A DNA stretch of 39,383 nucleotides from IMG/VR virus record IMGVR_UViG_3300027881_000823, positions 1 to 39,383 of that record; one strand, written 5' to 3'. This document shows, in pieces, positions 2,429 to 29,916 of this stretch (its first letter is position 1; each line of letters starts with the position of its first letter). Below the pieces are notes generated by a model. It had not been told where the DNA came from. It saw only the letters and a list, made by a program, of their open reading frames with translations, and did no database searches. The position numbers and the translations under genes were made by a program. Source of the DNA: a virus.

Positions 2429-3578
2429 ATGGCTTTTAATACAGTTGCTTATAATAAATATGATTACGTAGCAAAATTACGTGATAGATTGAACAAACCA
2501 AGTACATGGAGAGATGTTATGGAAGTTATTTATACCAACAATTATAGTAAAATTGATGGTTATATTTCAACAGAATCTTCAGTTGTAGCTGGAACTCGCG
2601 GAACAGCTTATCGCTATAATGCTTTCACTATTACAGCAGAAACATTAACAATTAGTTCTACCAAAATGGTAGCTTCATTTATTGATGAAATAGACAGAGC
2701 ACAGCAAACTTATGTTAATCAAATGACAATGGCTGAATATCATGGCAAGCAAATGAGTGAAGAAGTTGAAACATTAGTTTTAGCAGAACATGGAAGCTGG
2801 GTTAACTTTGGTATTGGTGATTTAACAGACCCAACAGCTGATGATGATACTCAGATTACAGTATCTGCTTCAAATATTGATGATATTATTCGTGCAGTTA
2901 AAACAAAGATTTACACCAACAATGGTGTGGATTTATCAATTGAACGAGGTGTTTTCCTTGTTTTAAGACCACAAGATTTTCAAGCGTTGGAAGCATTCGC
3001 ACAGGCTGGAATTAAATTCATTGGCCTGATTAAATCCTCTCTGATTAATGGGGAACACCTAATCGCAAAAGCGAAGGCAACCCTCAGCAAGGCATTATGC
3101 CAGCTGCAGAGACTGAGTGAGAGGACACTCTTAATGAGTGAAGCGACAGTCCGAACTACATAGAAATATGTAGAGATAGGTAGAAATATCCTATCCGTTC
3201 TTTAAAAACTTAATTAAAAAACACTGGTTCAAAAGTGTTTAATTAAGTTTAAAGAAAAGTAACAAATTGAATGGTTACAATATTGCTGATAATGCTTTGA
3301 AGAATGGTATTCCTGTTCAAAAAGGTTTCCACTATATGGGTGTTGATTGTTATCTTTCAAACTCACATGCCTCTGGTGGTCACTTATTTGCTGGTGTAAA
3401 GAGATGTGGTCAGCTTGGTTTAGCTCCAGCCACTTGGGGACAAGCTAAGTTTATTGAAGACCCAGTTACTGCCGCAGCAGGTCCTACTTCAGGTATTGGT
3501 ATTGTTTCTCGTATTGACTACGGCTTTGACTGGCCTGCCCAGTGGTCTGAGTTCGTAATGGACGTGCGGGTTGCGTAA
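2429..3578 (+). CDS. major capsid protein, split by a group I intron: join(2429..3007,3270..3578)
   Basis: The two exons join in frame to a 295-residue coat protein. Exon 1 (193 codons) ends ...LEAFAQA and exon 2 begins NGYNIADNALKNG; the joined FAQANGYNIAD and the later FHYMGVDCYLSNSH match the C-terminal half of P22-like/HK97-fold coat proteins, where an N-G-Y/F...AD...L..G segment is followed by GF.YMGV..Y.SN. Without splicing, exon 1 reads into the intron and stops at 3163. The splice sites are fixed by intron pairings P1 and P10. The protein forms the procapsid shell with the scaffold product upstream. Capsid genes are an unusual but known place for self-splicing introns. Confidence 0.9.
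3008..3269 (+). ncRNA. group I self-splicing intron in the coat gene
   Basis: A 262-nt intron without an internal endonuclease gene. P1: exon CAGGCT (3002-3007) pairs with the internal guide GGCCTG (3023-3028), ending in the diagnostic U-G pair. P10: CATT (3019-3022) pairs with the first exon 2 bases AATG (3270-3273). The last intron base is G (3269). Further pieces: hairpin TCGC-AAAA-GCGA (3063-3074), CAGC/GCTG around GGCA-TTA-TGCC (3085-3106), P7 GACTG (3111-3115) with CAGTC (3147-3151), P8 CACTC-TTAAT-GAGTG (3126-3140), then three 3' hairpins, including CTACAT/ATGTAG and GATAGG/CCTATC. This order is the group I core. Splicing itself is inferred. Confidence 0.92.
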
Positions 3579-3579
3579 A

Positions 3580-3597
3580 TTGGCTAAGATTAGCCAA
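3580..3597 (+). promoter_or_regulatory. hairpin after the coat gene
   Basis: TTGGCTA-AGAT-TAGCCAA directly follows the coat stop codon. It has no U-run, so it is a poor intrinsic terminator. It may protect the coat mRNA 3' end, or be a protein site: the same arms recur at 33317-33334 with another loop. Confidence 0.5.
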
Positions 3598-3610
3598 AAA
3601 AGTTATTGTT

Positions 3611-3639
3611 TTGACAATTAAATCCGTTAATGCTATAAT
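3611..3639 (+). promoter_or_regulatory. consensus sigma70 promoter for the HNH gene
   Basis: TTGACA (3611-3616), 17-base spacer, TATAAT (3634-3639): a perfect consensus promoter. Expected start near 3646, giving a leader of about 70 nt that holds strong hairpins before the endonuclease ATG at 3715. It is one of only two clear promoters inside the late region; both drive HNH genes. Confidence 0.8.
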
Positions 3640-3662
3640 AAATAATATTAATTAATATTGTT

Positions 3663-3706
3663 CCTATCGGATAAGCAGGTGGAACCGCTATATCCGATAA
3701 GGTTCC
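3663..3706 (+). promoter_or_regulatory. leader hairpins before the HNH gene
   Basis: CCTATCGGATA (3663-3673) pairs with TATCCGATAAGG (3691-3702), one A bulged. An alternative stem, GGAACC (3681-3686) with GGTTCC (3701-3706), excludes it. Both end within ten bases of the ATG at 3715, so they can affect its translation. Hairpins that hide the start of homing endonuclease genes are known in T4 (for example I-TevI). Confidence 0.5.
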
Positions 3707-3714
3707 ATAACAAT

Positions 3715-4143
3715 ATGCCATTTAAAAAAGGTTATATTCCTTGGAATAAAGAAAAAAATTTAGGAGGACAAGTTGAATATATATGTAAATATTGTGGTAA
3801 AAAATTTGTAACAAGAAAAAGAAACGGAAGAAAAATAAAATATTGTTCGCATGAATGTTATGCAAAAGATATGGTTGGAAGTATAAAATTAAAAACAAGA
3901 GGGAAAAAACATCATTTTTGGAAGGGAGAAAAGGCTTCTTATTCATCAATTCACGAGTGGATAAGAGCAAAAAAGGGCAATGCAAATGAATACAAGTGTT
4001 TGCATTGTAATAAACAAGCAAAAGATTGGGCAAATGTTGACCATTTATATAGTAGAAATTTAGAAGATTATTTGCCATTATGTCGTAAGTGTCATATAAA
4101 ATTTGATAAGAAAAATAATAATTATCAACACTATGGAAAATAA
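3715..4143 (+). CDS. free-standing HNH homing endonuclease
   Basis: 142 residues from the ATG at 3715, giving the typical start MPFKKGYIPWNK; an upstream TTG frame opening is ignored. A zinc-finger-like part (CKYCGKKF ... YCSHEC) at about residues 20-50 is followed by KHHFWKGE and an HNH nuclease domain (CLHCNKQ, VDHLYSR, LPLCRKCH) at about 100-137. It should nick or cut DNA at a specific site. It sits just behind the intron-bearing coat gene, has its own promoter and leader, and overlaps the next gene by 11 bases. It may act on the coat locus, possibly on the intron-free allele. Confidence 0.88.
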   Translation: MPFKKGYIPWNKEKNLGGQVEYICKYCGKKFVTRKRNGRKIKYCSHECYAKDMVGSIKLKTRGKKHHFWKGEKASYSSIHEWIRAKKGNANEYKCLHCNKQAKDWANVDHLYSRNLEDYLPLCRKCHIKFDKKNNNYQHYGK

Positions 4144-14421: not shown

Positions 14422-15225
14422 ATGTCAACTAAATCAGAAAGATTAAAAGAAATGTTAAAAATAGCTAACGATGGGCTTTCTCGTGAGGAGTTTTTAGAAT
14501 CTTTTAAAAAAGTTATTGATCACATCTTAAAAACAGAAATTAAACTAATAGAAAAGATAGATTTTAAAACCAAAGCTGAAAAAGAGAAAATGGAAGCATT
14601 AAGAAAAGAGTTTAGTCAAGTAATTGATCAAGCTAAAAAAGAAAGCGATAGCACATTGGGTGGATTTAGAAAACGCACAATGGAAGCAATCAACAAACTC
14701 TTTACTAGAAACGAAGTTAATAAAAAACTAAAAAACATACTAAAAGCCGCTGATACCAAGATTATAGAAGTAGACAACACAATGGCTACTGTTACAAGTG
14801 GCACAGATGGCATAGACGGAATAGACGGAAAAGATGCAGATGTAGAAAAGATTATTAAAGAAGTTTTAGACAAAATAGAGATTCCAGAGAAAGAAATTGG
14901 GATTGAAGATGTTGGTAATCTTAGAGATGAATTAGAAGAACTTAGAAAGATAAAAACTAAAGGTGGTGGTGGTGTTTCAGCAATGGGTGTGGCTCAAGCT
15001 GCTAAATGGATAGTCAAGACAGAAGAACCTAGTGGAACTATTGATGGAGCAAATACAGCATTTACAGTTTCTAAACCACGCATTTTTGCTATTTTAGCAA
15101 TGTCTTTAAATGGAGAATTTATAGCAAGATTACCTAATTATACTATTGCTGGAAATACAATAACTTTTAGTGAAGCAATTCCTGCTGCTTATGATGGCAA
15201 GGATTGGGAAATTGTTTATATTTAA
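14422..15225 (+). CDS. fibre protein: coiled coil, short collagen-like stretch, beta head
   Basis: 267 residues. N-terminal coiled coil to about residue 110, a short collagen-like GTDGIDGIDGKDA, another helix (KIIKEVLDKIEIPEKEIGIE), a glycine hinge (KGGGG) and a C-terminal beta domain (GTIDGANTAFTVSKP ... YTIAGNTITFSEAIPAAY) of the type seen in phage receptor-binding or fibre tips. The next gene starts one base after the stop, so the pair may form one fibre. Confidence 0.65.
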   Translation: MSTKSERLKEMLKIANDGLSREEFLESFKKVIDHILKTEIKLIEKIDFKTKAEKEKMEALRKEFSQVIDQAKKESDSTLGGFRKRTMEAINKLFTRNEVNKKLKNILKAADTKIIEVDNTMATVTSGTDGIDGIDGKDADVEKIIKEVLDKIEIPEKEIGIEDVGNLRDELEELRKIKTKGGGGVSAMGVAQAAKWIVKTEEPSGTIDGANTAFTVSKPRIFAILAMSLNGEFIARLPNYTIAGNTITFSEAIPAAYDGKDWEIVYI

Positions 15226-15226
15226 T

Positions 15227-18200
15227 ATGAAAAAGAAAATATTAATTGTATTATTACTTTTAATTACTCCTTTATTAGTTAAGGGTGTTGAGATTAGTAT
15301 TGATGAATTAAGAAGTTTGGCAAACGAACCACAACTTGGTCTTTTTAGTGATACTTTTCTTTCAATTCAATTAGCGGATAGTCCGAGCAGTGGACAATGT
15401 TTATCAACAGATGGAACAGATAATGTGTGGGGTTCGTGTGGTGGAGGAGGTGGTGCTTGGGCAAAGGTGTGGACAGGCGCTATTAAACCAACCACTTCTG
15501 GTGCAGGTATATTTGTAACAGCCTCATCAACTATTCAAGGAAGTTTAAGAGTAGATGGCGACGCCACAACAACAGGTTCTTTTCATGCAACAGATTTACA
15601 CATTAGTAATAATATAGAAGTTTTAGCCAATATAGATGCTACTGGAAGCGTAGTAGCTAATGATTTTACAGGTGATTGGACTGGAACAGCCATTTCTAAT
15701 GCTTATGGTGGAACAGGAGCAAACAGTCAAGCATGGACTGGCTGGGTAAGGGCTGATTCTGGAACATGGTCAGTAAGCAATGTTTCTGTTACTTCAACAA
15801 TGTTAGCCAATGATGACTTTGGTCATATTAGCTGTAGTGGAACAGACGCAAGCTGTATAATTGACTCTGCTGTTGTGTCAGTAGTTGAATTAAGCAGTTC
15901 AGATTTTGGGGACTTTACTTGTGATGGTACAAATTGTCTTTTAGATGCAGGTGTAAGTAATTGGGATATGGCTTGGGCAGGAACAATAAAACCCTCTTCA
16001 ACTAATGATGCTACAGGAATATATGTTCAAAGTTCATCTACCATTGATATATTAAGAGTTGCTGATTCATTAAATGCTTCAACTACAAATATAGATACTT
16101 TAGTAGTTAATACAGGTTCTACTTTTCCTGCTAATGATATTACAGATGATGAAATAAACGAGGGACTTACTTTTGAATGGACAGCTGCACACTCTTGGTC
16201 TACTGATGCAAGGGTGAATGGAGTATTACACGCAACTAGCACTGACTTTGATGAGTTATTAGTTTATGGTGATTCAAATTTACAAGCCGCAACTACTACT
16301 AATCTTGCTGTATCAGGAATGATAGCAGCTTCTTGTGATGTAAAAGCTGTAGAAAGCACAGGAACATTTTATTGCGGTACAGATGCAACAGGCACTGGTA
16401 TACCATTTGCTTGGACAGACACAACCTATGGTATGTCCACCTCTACTATATTAGGGTTTACCGCTGGCTTTTTATCTAATGCTAGCTCAACAGTAATTGG
16501 TGATTTTAAAGTAGATGGATTTTTAAGAGCTACTACTGGATTAGATTTCTGGTTAAACGCTAGTTCAACAATTCTTACAGAGGCAGATTTTGCAGGTGAG
16601 TGGAATACATTACATAATGCTTCAACTACATATCCAGGGTTTGCTACACAGTTTGCAGTAGCACATAATGCTACTACAACCTATCCAGGTTTTGACGCAC
16701 AATGGCTAGTGGCAGAAAATGCATCTAGCACAACTTTTTCTAGTGTAGATAATGCTAGCTATTGGACTGCCAACTTTGGAACAGAATGGCTGACAGTAGA
16801 GAATGCTTCATCAACAACATTTTCTACAGTTGATAATACAACCTTTTGGAATAATACTACAACTTGGTCAGGTTTTCAATCAGAATGGAATGATAAAACT
16901 AATGCAAGTTCAACCCTTTTAACAGAAGCAGACTTTGCTGGTGAATGGTTATCAGCAGAGAATGCGTCTAGTACCACATTTTCAACTAAAGATAATACAA
17001 GTTATTGGACAGCTAATTTTACAACGCAGTGGAATACTTTACATAATGCAACTTCTACATACCCTGGTTTTCAAACTCAGTGGAATGCGGCTGTAAATGC
17101 TAGTTCAACAATTATTACACAAGCTGACATGGACACAGATATTGCTACACACGCTGGAGATGACGATGCCCATCATGCTTTGGTAACTATTACTGGTGAA
17201 GACTATGCCTCTTTATCAACTCAACAAATAACCTTTAGTAATGTTGATGCAGCGAATGTAGATTTAACAGATGCTTATTCTTGGTCAGGTATACATGCTT
17301 TTTCAGCAGACGCAAGAATTACTGGAGTATTACACGCTACCTCCACAGATTTTGACGAATTGTTAGTATATGGCAATGCTACCACTACCGCCTCAATGGA
17401 TGCTTTGGAATTTTGTATAAATGGTGCAAGCTGTATTACCTCGTGGCCATCAAGTTCAGGCGCACCATTTGCATGGACAGATACAACTTATGGTATGGCA
17501 ACCTCAACTATAATAGGATTTAGTGCAGGGGCTTTATCTAATGCAAGCACAACAATAACAGTTTTACATTCTGATATGATAAATGCTACTACTACAAACA
17601 TAGATACTCTGGTTGTTTATACAGGAATAACAGTGCCAGCAAATAGCATTAGTGATGATGAAATAAACGAGGGTGATACTTTTGAGTGGACAGCCTTACA
17701 CACCTTTACACCTGAAGCAATTTTTACAGCAGGTTTAAAAACAGGAGGTTCAATAAATGCTACTACTACAAATATAGACACTTTAACAGTTTATACTGCA
17801 ATTACTTTTCCAGACCCAGCTAATTGTGCAGCTGGCAGTTATCCTTTGGGTATAGATGCTAATGGAGCAGTTGAATCTTGCACAGACGCAACAACTGAAA
17901 TTGATTCAGCTATTCTTACACATAATGACCCTGATTTTCACAGACCTACAACTTCACTGGATTATTGGTTTACAAATACAGGAGGTATTGACACAGACGG
18001 CTTGGGAGAAGGTTCAAGTAATTTATATTATACTCAAGCCAGAGTTTGGATTGATGTTTGGGCTTCATCTACTTTAGATACAATTTTAACTGATTCACAA
18101 CTTCATGTAGCAGATAACACACAAGCCCATACAGATTATTTATTAAATAGTGGTTCTGATATTATGGGAGGAACTTTAACTGCTGATGGTTTAACTTTGG

Positions 18201-19969
18201 GAGCTAATGAAAATATAACACTTGGCTCTCAAACTTTAGACCACGATGGCACAGATTTTGCTTTTAATGATAGTGTAAATATTACTGGCGCTGCAACTAC
18301 TTCGGCTTCAGTTGACGCTGCAGAGTTTTGTATATCAGGGGCAAGCTGTATTGCTTCGTGGCCTTCGGGTTCTGGTTTAACAGATATTAATTCATCTCAA
18401 CTTGGACAACTAAGTGATGTAAACACTACCACTTTAGCAGTAGCTTCTGCTTTAATGTGGGACGGAAGTGAATGGATAAGCTACGCGACAACTACAATGA
18501 TTATGGTTAATGAAATAGACACAGAGGGAGAATTAGAATCAGTATCTAACATAACAAACATATTACGAGAAACAGAAATAGATGCTTCATCAGAATTACT
18601 GAATATTATGGACGATGAAACAGGCACAGGTGTATTAGTGTTCGGAACTTCACCAACATTTACTACTGGGATTACAGTTCCTGCAAATTCAATTTCTGAT
18701 GATGAACTTAATGAAGGCGATACATTTGAATGGACAGCTGTACACTCTTGGTCGTCTGATGCAAGGATTACGGGAGTTCTTCACGCTACTTCTACAGACT
18801 TTGACGAATTATTAGTATATGGTAATGCTACTACTACTGGTAGTATGGATGCAGCAGCTTATTGTATTGCTGGAGCAAATTGCGTAACATCTATTGCTTC
18901 TGATGAGGTTGGAACTAAGACATCTGGAGATTTATGTATCAATGATGGTTCTGTTGTAAATTGCACAGTCAACACAATAGCCGAATTAGAAACAGCTTTA
19001 GATGCTGAAAATATAATAACAAATGATGAAATGGATGCGTCAAGCGAATTATTAGACATTTTTGATGATGAAACGGGAACTGGCGTAATTGTATTTGGAA
19101 CTTCACCAACCTTTACTACTGGCATAACTGTTCCAGCCAATTCTATCAGTGATGACGAACTTGACGAGGGAGCAGCGTTTGATTGGACTGCAATACACAG
19201 TTGGTCATCTGATGCTAGGATAAATGGTGTCTTACATGCAACATCTACTGATTTTGATAATTTGTTGGTTTATGGTGATGCAACTTTTATAGACGCTACA
19301 TCAACTGGTTCTTTAGTAGTTGTAGATTTAACAGCAAGTGGGGATATTATATTACCAAACGATAGTATTCTTGATGCTATGATAGATTGGGGAAATCTCA
19401 CTGATTTGGCTGCAGGTGGCGAGGTTACTTGGGGAAACATAACAGCAGGTGAATTAGCCAACGATAGTGTTATAAATGCTGATATAGATGATGATGGGGC
19501 TTTTGTTTTTACAGGCGCTTGGGGTTTTGATGGTGGTTCTCTTGAAATACCACAAGATGACACTGTTAATGCTGCTGGTGAGATTAAGTTAGATACAACC
19601 AGTGATACTTTTAGGGCTTATGGTGCTTCAGAAAGAGTATTTGATTGGGAACAAAGTTTTAGTTTTACAATAGCTTCAACAACATTTGATATATTTAAAC
19701 AAATTCCAATTAAGGCACATAAAAAAGCAATTACAATTACAGATATTGCTTGTCGTGTAATAACGGCAACAGACCAAGATATTTTTATTTCTGATGGAAC
19801 TAATGATACTGAAACTATTGTTTGCACAACTTCTAATTCTGAAGATGATGGTTCAATCACCAACGGAACATTTACAGCAAGAGAAATGATGTATGTAGAA
19901 ATTGGCACAAAAGCGGGGACACCTGATTGGTTAAATGTTACAATTTCGTACACTTTGGATGCGGACTAG
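15227..19969 (+). CDS. giant repetitive fibre/adhesin with signal peptide
   Basis: 1580 residues from the ATG at 15227 (MKKKILIVLLLLITPLLVKG), following the previous stop by one base; the upstream frame opening at 15170 is not used. The first 20 residues are a typical Sec signal or anchor. The body is low-complexity Thr/Ser/Ala/Asn with many NASST and NATTT motifs and four to six long repeats containing VPANSISDDE, EWTAxHSWSSDAR, GVLHATSTDFDELLVYG and CIxGAxC. A non-repetitive C-terminal beta domain (about 1490-1580) ends YTLDAD. Likely the distal fibre or an exported adhesin. An HNH gene is inserted directly behind it. Confidence 0.75.
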   Translation: MKKKILIVLLLLITPLLVKGVEISIDELRSLANEPQLGLFSDTFLSIQLADSPSSGQCLSTDGTDNVWGSCGGGGGAWAKVWTGAIKPTTSGAGIFVTASSTIQGSLRVDGDATTTGSFHATDLHISNNIEVLANIDATGSVVANDFTGDWTGTAISNAYGGTGANSQAWTGWVRADSGTWSVSNVSVTSTMLANDDFGHISCSGTDASCIIDSAVVSVVELSSSDFGDFTCDGTNCLLDAGVSNWDMAWAGTIKPSSTNDATGIYVQSSSTIDILRVADSLNASTTNIDTLVVNTGSTFPANDITDDEINEGLTFEWTAAHSWSTDARVNGVLHATSTDFDELLVYGDSNLQAATTTNLAVSGMIAASCDVKAVESTGTFYCGTDATGTGIPFAWTDTTYGMSTSTILGFTAGFLSNASSTVIGDFKVDGFLRATTGLDFWLNASSTILTEADFAGEWNTLHNASTTYPGFATQFAVAHNATTTYPGFDAQWLVAENASSTTFSSVDNASYWTANFGTEWLTVENASSTTFSTVDNTTFWNNTTTWSGFQSEWNDKTNASSTLLTEADFAGEWLSAENASSTTFSTKDNTSYWTANFTTQWNTLHNATSTYPGFQTQWNAAVNASSTIITQADMDTDIATHAGDDDAHHALVTITGEDYASLSTQQITFSNVDAANVDLTDAYSWSGIHAFSADARITGVLHATSTDFDELLVYGNATTTASMDALEFCINGASCITSWPSSSGAPFAWTDTTYGMATSTIIGFSAGALSNASTTITVLHSDMINATTTNIDTLVVYTGITVPANSISDDEINEGDTFEWTALHTFTPEAIFTAGLKTGGSINATTTNIDTLTVYTAITFPDPANCAAGSYPLGIDANGAVESCTDATTEIDSAILTHNDPDFHRPTTSLDYWFTNTGGIDTDGLGEGSSNLYYTQARVWIDVWASSTLDTILTDSQLHVADNTQAHTDYLLNSGSDIMGGTLTADGLTLGANENITLGSQTLDHDGTDFAFNDSVNITGAATTSASVDAAEFCISGASCIASWPSGSGLTDINSSQLGQLSDVNTTTLAVASALMWDGSEWISYATTTMIMVNEIDTEGELESVSNITNILRETEIDASSELLNIMDDETGTGVLVFGTSPTFTTGITVPANSISDDELNEGDTFEWTAVHSWSSDARITGVLHATSTDFDELLVYGNATTTGSMDAAAYCIAGANCVTSIASDEVGTKTSGDLCINDGSVVNCTVNTIAELETALDAENIITNDEMDASSELLDIFDDETGTGVIVFGTSPTFTTGITVPANSISDDELDEGAAFDWTAIHSWSSDARINGVLHATSTDFDNLLVYGDATFIDATSTGSLVVVDLTASGDIILPNDSILDAMIDWGNLTDLAAGGEVTWGNITAGELANDSVINADIDDDGAFVFTGAWGFDGGSLEIPQDDTVNAAGEIKLDTTSDTFRAYGASERVFDWEQSFSFTIASTTFDIFKQIPIKAHKKAITITDIACRVITATDQDIFISDGTNDTETIVCTTSNSEDDGSITNGTFTAREMMYVEIGTKAGTPDWLNVTISYTLDAD
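19949..19969 (+). repeat. 21-bp repeat, copy 1 (end of fibre gene)
   Basis: Pattern TACACT-N3-GATGCGGA-N-TA-N, encoding YTLDAD and stop. It matches 17 of 21 bases with 20542-20562, which encodes YTIDAD and stop at the end of the HNH gene. The pair brackets the HNH gene and its promoter. Confidence 0.75.
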
Positions 19970-20013: not shown

Positions 20014-20562
20014 ATGTTTAAAAAAGGACACCCACAATTTAATACAGGTAGAACGCATTTTAAAAAAGGTCAAATACCTTGGAACAAAAAATCAAAGATT
20101 AAAAAGGAATGTTTGTTTTGTAAAAAGGAATTTTTGATTCACCCCTGTCGTAAGAATATAGCCAAGTATTGTTCAAAAAAGTGTATGGATAAATCAAAAA
20201 TTGGTAGTATTGGATATTGGTTAAATAAAAAACGTTCACAAAAAACAATAGAAAAGATAAGTAAATCACGAACAGGCATAATGATGGGTGAAAATCATCA
20301 TAACTGGAAAGGTGGAATTACTCCTAAAAATAAAGCAATAAGAGATTCAGCAAAATATCTTAATTGGAGAAAAAAGATTTTTAAAAGAGATAATTGGACT
20401 TGTCAAGAATGTAAACAACGGGGTGGTGATTTAGAAGTTCATCATATTAAAAAATTTATTAAATATCCTAAATTAAGGTTTAAAGTATCAAATGGTATAA
20501 CTTTATGTAAAGAATGCCATAGATTAACAAAATTAAAATCTTACACTATTGATGCGGATTAA
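20014..20562 (+). CDS. free-standing HNH homing endonuclease with NUMOD3-like motif
   Basis: 182 residues. FKKGQIPWNKK start motif, zinc-finger-like ECLFCKKEF ... KYCSKKCMD, NUMOD3-like helix (KKRSQKTIEKISKSRTGI), HHNWKGG, and a C-terminal HNH domain (FKRDNWTCQECKQRGG, LEVHHIKKF, NGITLCKECHRL). The domain order resembles the HNH gene at 3715, but the sequences have diverged. The last six residues (YTIDAD) copy the end of the upstream fibre, which suggests the element was inserted in the fibre gene's end and the old end became its tail. Confidence 0.88.
   Translation: MFKKGHPQFNTGRTHFKKGQIPWNKKSKIKKECLFCKKEFLIHPCRKNIAKYCSKKCMDKSKIGSIGYWLNKKRSQKTIEKISKSRTGIMMGENHHNWKGGITPKNKAIRDSAKYLNWRKKIFKRDNWTCQECKQRGGDLEVHHIKKFIKYPKLRFKVSNGITLCKECHRLTKLKSYTIDAD
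20542..20562 (+). repeat. 21-bp repeat, copy 2 (end of HNH gene)
   Basis: Partner of 19949-19969 in the same reading frame relative to its gene; followed by TATG, the usual junction to the next gene. This copy probably is the original fibre 3' end. Confidence 0.75.
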
Positions 20563-29389: not shown

Positions 29390-29411
29390 TCCTCAATATG
29401 AGGGGGTTAGT
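29390..29411 (-). repeat. 22-bp repeat flanking pentapeptide gene, 3' copy
   Basis: TCCTCAATATGAGG followed by GGGTTAGT. One mismatch to 29927-29948. Contains the small palindrome CCTCA-N3-TGAGG. Overlaps the stop codon of the pentapeptide gene. Confidence 0.8.
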
Positions 29412-29916
29412 TTTTAATCACAAATCCTAACGCTTTTAGAAAATTTGGTAATTGTTTTTTAGTTAATTCTTTTGGATTGTTTGTTTTTCCAATAAATTTA
29501 GCACCACACAAGTCAGCATCACGCAAGTCAGCACCATACAAGTTAGCACCACACAAGTCAGCATCACGCAAGTCAGCACCATACAAGTTAGCACCACACA
29601 AGTCAGCATCACGCAAGTCAGCACCATACAAGTTAGCACCACGCAAGTCAGCACCATACAAGTTAGCATCACACAAGTTAGCATCACGCAAGTTAGCACC
29701 ACACAAGTTAGCATCACGCAAGTTAGCATCACTATTTACTAATTCTTCTAATACTTCTTTATAAGTAATTTTTTCGCTTTCAAACATAATATCACCAGTA
29801 AATCTGTTTTTAATAGTAATACCAACTTTTTTAGTTTCTTTTACATTCTCAATTTCTTGAATGTAATCTTTTGTTTGGTCTAAATTATCTAAGACCTGTT
29901 TTTTTGTAATTTTCAT
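29407..29916 (-). CDS. pentapeptide-repeat protein
   Basis: 169 residues with a true SD (AAGGAG). An N-terminal part of about 70 residues (MKITKKQVLDNLDQTKDYIQ; FTGDIMFESEKITYKEVLEE) is followed by about 14 pentapeptides of the A(D/N)LxG/D type (ANLRDANLCGANLRDANLCD), then LTKKQLPNFLKALGFVIKN. Such repeats fold as a right-handed beta-helix; some (Qnr, MfpA) mimic DNA and bind gyrase, but most have no known partner. The DNA of the repeats contains near-identical 45-bp units, so length changes by slippage are likely. Confidence 0.85.
   Translation of the reverse strand: MKITKKQVLDNLDQTKDYIQEIENVKETKKVGITIKNRFTGDIMFESEKITYKEVLEELVNSDANLRDANLCGANLRDANLCDANLYGADLRGANLYGADLRDADLCGANLYGADLRDADLCGANLYGADLRDADLCGAKFIGKTNNPKELTKKQLPNFLKALGFVIKN

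Follow-up and report, generated by a model that had tools for sequence, protein, structure and literature searches.

A predicted group I intron without an open reading frame in the major capsid protein gene of an uncultured phage belongs to a mobile intron family

Introduction

The IMG/VR record IMGVR_UViG_3300027881_000823 comes from an uncultured phage, and the whole stretch analysed here (positions 1–39,383; 39,383 nucleotides, referred to as the window) carries a major capsid protein gene that is distributed over two reading frames. With automated annotation, the capsid protein would be taken as truncated, and the second half of the gene would be left as an orphan. The locus raises the question of whether the gene is broken or whether the interrupting segment can be removed from the RNA. 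An initial annotation had assigned 3008–3269 to a group I intron, defining both splice sites, and had considered that splicing could time capsid production. It had named a covariance search with the Rfam group I model and a comparison with intron-free coat genes as checks, and extra coat residues in relatives at this position as evidence to the contrary.

In this study, we analyzed the capsid gene, its relatives and the neighboring region of the window. With a probability of roughly 95%, we read 3008–3269 as a group I intron, predicted to be self-splicing, from a mobile family residing in the capsid genes of this clade of phages, with its ORF lost in the window.

Results and discussion

Structure of the interrupted capsid gene

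Without splicing, the capsid frame starts at 2429 and stops at 3163, giving 244 amino acids of which the last 51 are intron-encoded, and the remainder of the gene is read in another frame, which ends at 3578. This agrees with the truncated coat protein that had been expected from unspliced RNA. Joining of exon 1 (2429–3007, plus strand; 193 codons, ending with EAFAQA) to exon 2 (3270–3578, plus strand; 102 codons and stop, beginning with NGYNIAD), i.e. of position 3007 to 3270, yields an open frame of 295 amino acids with the sequence FAQA-NGYNIAD at the junction, as the initial annotation had read it. The joined protein matches PHROG 267 (major head protein) with an E-value of 1.3e-9, compared to 4.3e-6 for the unspliced ORF, and this match spans the splice junction. 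From the structure and established knowledge on group I introns, we reasonably infer that splicing would be essential for the capsid. The capsid frame is also open through P1 to P8 of the intron (3008–3163, 51 codons); since the frame of exon 1 stays open up to 3163, ribosomes could enter the ribozyme core and disturb its folding. Unlike in the window, the first intron codon in a related capsid gene (L085) is TGA.

A search of IMG/VR with the portal protein of the window provided 19 related contigs, 13 of them with an alignable capsid gene. In all 13, the alignment to the joined protein contains neither gaps nor additional residues at the junction, where the relatives carry FVQA-NGF or a very similar sequence and the window carries FAQA-NGY. 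By an alignment search in IMG/VR, 46 capsid loci were obtained; in 38 of these, a single unbroken match crosses the junction and extends to the protein end or close to it. Due to these gap-free alignments, the relatives do not show the extra coat residues corresponding to 3008–3269 that would have spoken against an intron. No matches were obtained by a single-sequence search with the major capsid protein (MCP) in IMG/VR and GenBank phages, only two distant relatives by a terminase search, and no relative by a scan of genome contigs for a host or prophage.

Family model, folding and helices of the intron

The assignment of 3008–3269 (plus strand, 262 nt, without ORF) to the group I introns is based on a match to the Rfam model RF00028, on homologous introns at the same site and on covariation. 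RF00028 matched full-length over 2971–3173 with 34.0 bits (E-value 4.7e-7 in a 501-base search), which is below the curated gathering cut-off of 50; default Rfam searches did not report the window intron, and the match was obtained only in a permissive search of a short stretch. The covariance search named in the initial annotation thus gave a group I match at this sub-threshold level, where the catalytic core (P3–P8 and P4–P6) is recognized. Independently, the model matches introns of relatives, namely those of L088 (42.4 bits) and L089 (24.9 bits). The intron region folds better than shuffled sequences, with a z-score of −5.81.

All elements noticed before, i.e. P1, P10, the terminal G, P7 and P8, were found again on the plus strand. 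P1 is formed by CAGGCT of the 5′ exon (3002–3007) and the internal guide GGCCTG (3023–3028), with the pair U3007·G3023 at the splice site. For P10, the guide CATT (3019–3022) pairs with AATG of exon 2 (3270–3273) in four of four positions. P7, the guanosine-site helix (GACTG 3111–3115 with CAGTC 3147–3151), forms the P3/P7 pseudoknot together with the 7-bp helix P3 (3035–3041 with 3119–3125). P8 (CACTC 3126–3130 with GAGTG 3136–3140) was assigned by the family-model match and direct reading, while P9 (3156–3162 with 3167–3173) and P9.1 (3175–3180 with 3190–3195) were assigned by folding and direct reading. P9.2 (3206–3216 with 3240–3250) encloses the loop which in relatives holds an HNH ORF. 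A P1, a terminal G and a P10 at such spacing occur at 4 of the 12,201 T-ending positions in the window; as four window positions meet the same criteria, P1 and P10 were rejected as sufficient evidence on their own.

Pairing was compared over six distinct introns. In P1, P3, P7, P9.2 and P10 taken together, 96.9% of the cells are paired, versus 28.7–49.2% in a control in which the partner strand was slid by one to three columns. Both partners are changed in twelve pairs, and none of 500 shuffles reached the observed pairing, double changes or covariation. The best covariation witness is P3, with 97.6% of the cells paired and both-side changes in six of its seven pairs. P7 is complete in all six introns (5/5 pairs, 100% of the cells) and contains one compensatory change, and P1 has 6/6 pairs with the U·G pair always kept. 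The last base is G in every intron examined, and in the window it is G3269. The E-value of RF00028, the folding z-score, the gap-free intron-free homologues and the shuffles together place the intron far beyond chance.

Homologous introns in related capsid genes

Besides the window intron, seven distinct introns of this family were found in related capsid genes. Five (L085, L088, L089, L094, L097) occupy the same junction as in the window, and two (L086, L087) are inserted 12 nt upstream, after GAGGCT. Removal of each relative's intron restores the capsid frame. A scan with an 18-nt string from the P7 region led to L025/L028, which are the same contigs as L089/L090 and carry a 905-nt intron at exactly the site of the window intron; over the first 218 nt, the L089 intron and the window intron are 76% identical. 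Further introns came from a capsid scan and an endonuclease scan, with L095 and L096 being near-copies of L094. The 18-nt string (GAAGCGACAGTCCGAACT) is also present in about 20 other viral contigs (L024, L026, L027, L029–L045) with group I-like surroundings.

The letters of P1 and P10 track the insertion site, as predicted by splice-site choice via an internal guide. At the first site, CAGGCT/GGCCTG is combined with CATT/AATG, and at the second site GAGGCT/GGCCTC, with a CG-to-GC exchange in P1, is combined with CGAA/TTCG. P10 has 4/4 pairs with different letters in L086, 3/4 in L085 and L087, and a weak 1/4 in L089.

Alternatively, the interruption could be a non-functional insertion or result from misassembly, leaving the capsid protein truncated or absent. 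We regard this as extremely improbable, since the catalytic helices are all intact and co-varying, the insertion site is exactly that of five other distinct introns, and both exons are open and alignable end to end. With the model match, the covariation, the relatives with an empty site and the homologous introns at the same site, the initial assignment of a group I intron and of its two splice sites stands. The intron would be self-splicing, as its structure and established knowledge on group I introns suggest.

Horizontal spread

In a phylogenetic tree calculated from 40 distinct capsid protein sequences, intron-bearing tips are scattered and require six changes over the 40 tips. L089, L085 and L087 each have a close intron-free neighbor, and a constraint joining four same-site introns in one clade was rejected. 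The window protein is located on a long branch (0.75). Between the window and L089, the introns are 79% identical and the exons 62.5%. The scattered distribution of the introns on the capsid tree, together with their higher similarity compared to the surrounding exons, shows that they have moved horizontally. Sporadic presence at one site among related genes together with horizontal spread, as expected of a mobile (homing) intron, was thus found for this family. Judged by the gene sequences, the clade displays all states of the homing cycle (described in PMC1654191) at one locus: empty, full, partly deleted and ORF-less. With these states around a single gene site and two sites 12 nt apart with matching P1 and P10, the clade provides a clean natural data set for testing site change and endonuclease loss in group I introns.

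The intron might instead have a regulatory function, with splicing delaying or tuning the production of capsid protein, in line with the initial suggestion of timing and with the fact that full-length capsid protein is impossible from unspliced RNA. Most relatives have the same gene without the intron, however, and its presence is scattered; no conserved regulatory feature was seen, and the ORF-bearing relatives resemble ordinary homing introns. This distribution is that of a homing parasite, and we consider a role in timing very unlikely.

Loss of the endonuclease ORF

The introns of L085, L087, L088, L089, L094 and L097 have an HNH ORF in the P9.2 loop, which comprises 192–203 amino acids in L085, L087, L088 and L089. 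The encoded proteins are related to PHROG 1035, endonuclease VII; from the intron structures and established group I intron knowledge, we infer that they would be active endonucleases. Their C-terminus contains a conserved motif similar to NLQPLWAKENxxKGSK followed by few residues, with codons overlapping the 3′ strand of P9.2. In L086 the ORF is mostly gone, and about 30 codons of its end are left.

No homing endonuclease is encoded in the window intron, in which the longest ATG-started frame has 9 codons. At 3226–3246 (plus strand), the sequence GGT TCA AAA GTG TTT AAT TAA encodes GSKVFN* when translated in the lost protein's frame; it has two base differences from the L088 sequence, where the C-terminus is KGSKVSN*. 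As its first codons lie in the loop, where pairing does not explain the conservation, this relic was read as a deletion scar. We take the window intron to be an endonuclease-stripped member of the family that kept the last six codons and the stop. The branching order in a tree of six introns is weakly supported, so that the direction, loss rather than gain of the ORF, is based on the codon relic and the distribution instead of the tree.

Proposed mechanism and the neighboring HNH gene

In the predicted self-splicing, P1 would set the 5′ splice site and P10 the 3′ splice site in the RNA. A guanosine bound at P7 would attack after U3007, and the freed exon end would then attack after G3269, thereby joining FAQA to NGYNIAD to give the 295-amino-acid capsid protein. 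The HNH endonuclease from the P9.2 loop of the family would cut intron-free capsid alleles, and repair would copy the intron in. In the lineage of the window, about 600 nt of the endonuclease ORF would have been deleted, leaving the intact catalytic core and the six-codon scar. The ORF-less intron may be retained by neutral persistence or by occasional trans-homing.

A possible helper is encoded by a free-standing HNH endonuclease gene at 3715–4143 (plus strand; PHROG 1271, E-value 4.8e-10), which might cut intron-free capsid alleles and so mobilize the ORF-less intron in trans. The gene starts 136 nt past the interrupted capsid gene in a layout that parallels T4 nrdB/mobE (PMC2988022), and the much higher identity to L089 in the intron than in the exons indicates fairly recent movement. 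Nevertheless, this recent movement may predate the ORF loss, and an HNH gene of 91% identity, together with the same intergenic region, is located beside an intron-free capsid gene in L019/L050/L054. The free-standing gene and the intron are therefore not co-inherited, and the target of the HNH protein may differ, which makes mobilization in trans an unlikely explanation. The wider proposal, in which the unrelated downstream HNH gene maintains the mobility of the stripped intron, the two being separate but cooperating elements around the capsid gene (trans-homing), and the family has also shifted its site by 12 nt via matched P1 and P10, is a little more doubtful still. The reading that we prefer remains a mobile-family intron that has lost its own ORF.

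Further observations downstream and elsewhere in the window

The stretch 3579–4143, including the free-standing HNH gene, has 91.5% DNA identity to L019, compared to 68.5% for the capsid exons. By this comparison of the window with L019, a sharp apparent exchange boundary adjoins the free-standing HNH gene.

Between the capsid stop at 3578 and the ATG at 3715, a conserved RNA pseudoknot was detected at 3655–3717. In this element, the loop TGGAACC of a hairpin (TATCGGAT.../ATCCGATA) pairs with a downstream GGTTCCA, and both are enclosed by an outer stem ATTGTT/AACAAT that extends to the next start codon. Counted over the window together with ten distinct relatives, in all of which the element follows the capsid gene, 97.9% of the cells are paired and both partners are changed in 16 pairs (0/500 shuffles), and the pseudoknot also follows the capsid gene in four more contigs. 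No Rfam match was found for 3655–3717. A probable role of the pseudoknot is to limit translation of the gene following the capsid gene, and it may be an undescribed motif.

A second free-standing HNH gene is located at 20014–20562, and its end SYTIDAD repeats the end SYTLDAD of the preceding large gene (15170–19969), as if the insertion had brought its own copy of the end of that gene. A pentapeptide-repeat-like protein (ANLRDANLCGAN...) is encoded at 29407–29916 on the minus strand.

Comparison with known systems

For mycobacteriophage LittleE, splicing of an intron in the major capsid gene was demonstrated by RT-PCR and capsid size; the type of this intron was unclear to the authors, who considered group I most likely (PMC3706429). 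Like the window, LittleE combines a group I-like capsid intron with an exon ending in U, an intron ending in G and intron-free relatives, but its intron has about 819 bp and an endonuclease frame on the opposite strand, and the phage belongs to another lineage (PMC3706429). The tail-gene intron of mycobacteriophage BAKA resembles the window intron in its size of about 265 bp, the lack of an ORF and its position in a virion structural gene; it differs in gene and family, and its 5′ part is common with the LittleE intron (PMC3706429). The lactococcal phage Tuc2009 also has a capsid-gene intron (cited in PMC3706429), a likeness by description only. In T4, the nrdB intron with the defunct I-TevIII is mobilized by the neighboring free-standing mobE (PMC2988022). 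The window shares with it a defunct HNH ORF in the intron and a free-standing HNH gene nearby, although the gene is a different one and trans-homing, which was demonstrated in T4, is a possibility here. Since capsid introns have been described in LittleE and Tuc2009, this kind of intron is already known, and the window intron adds a member in an uncultured clade.
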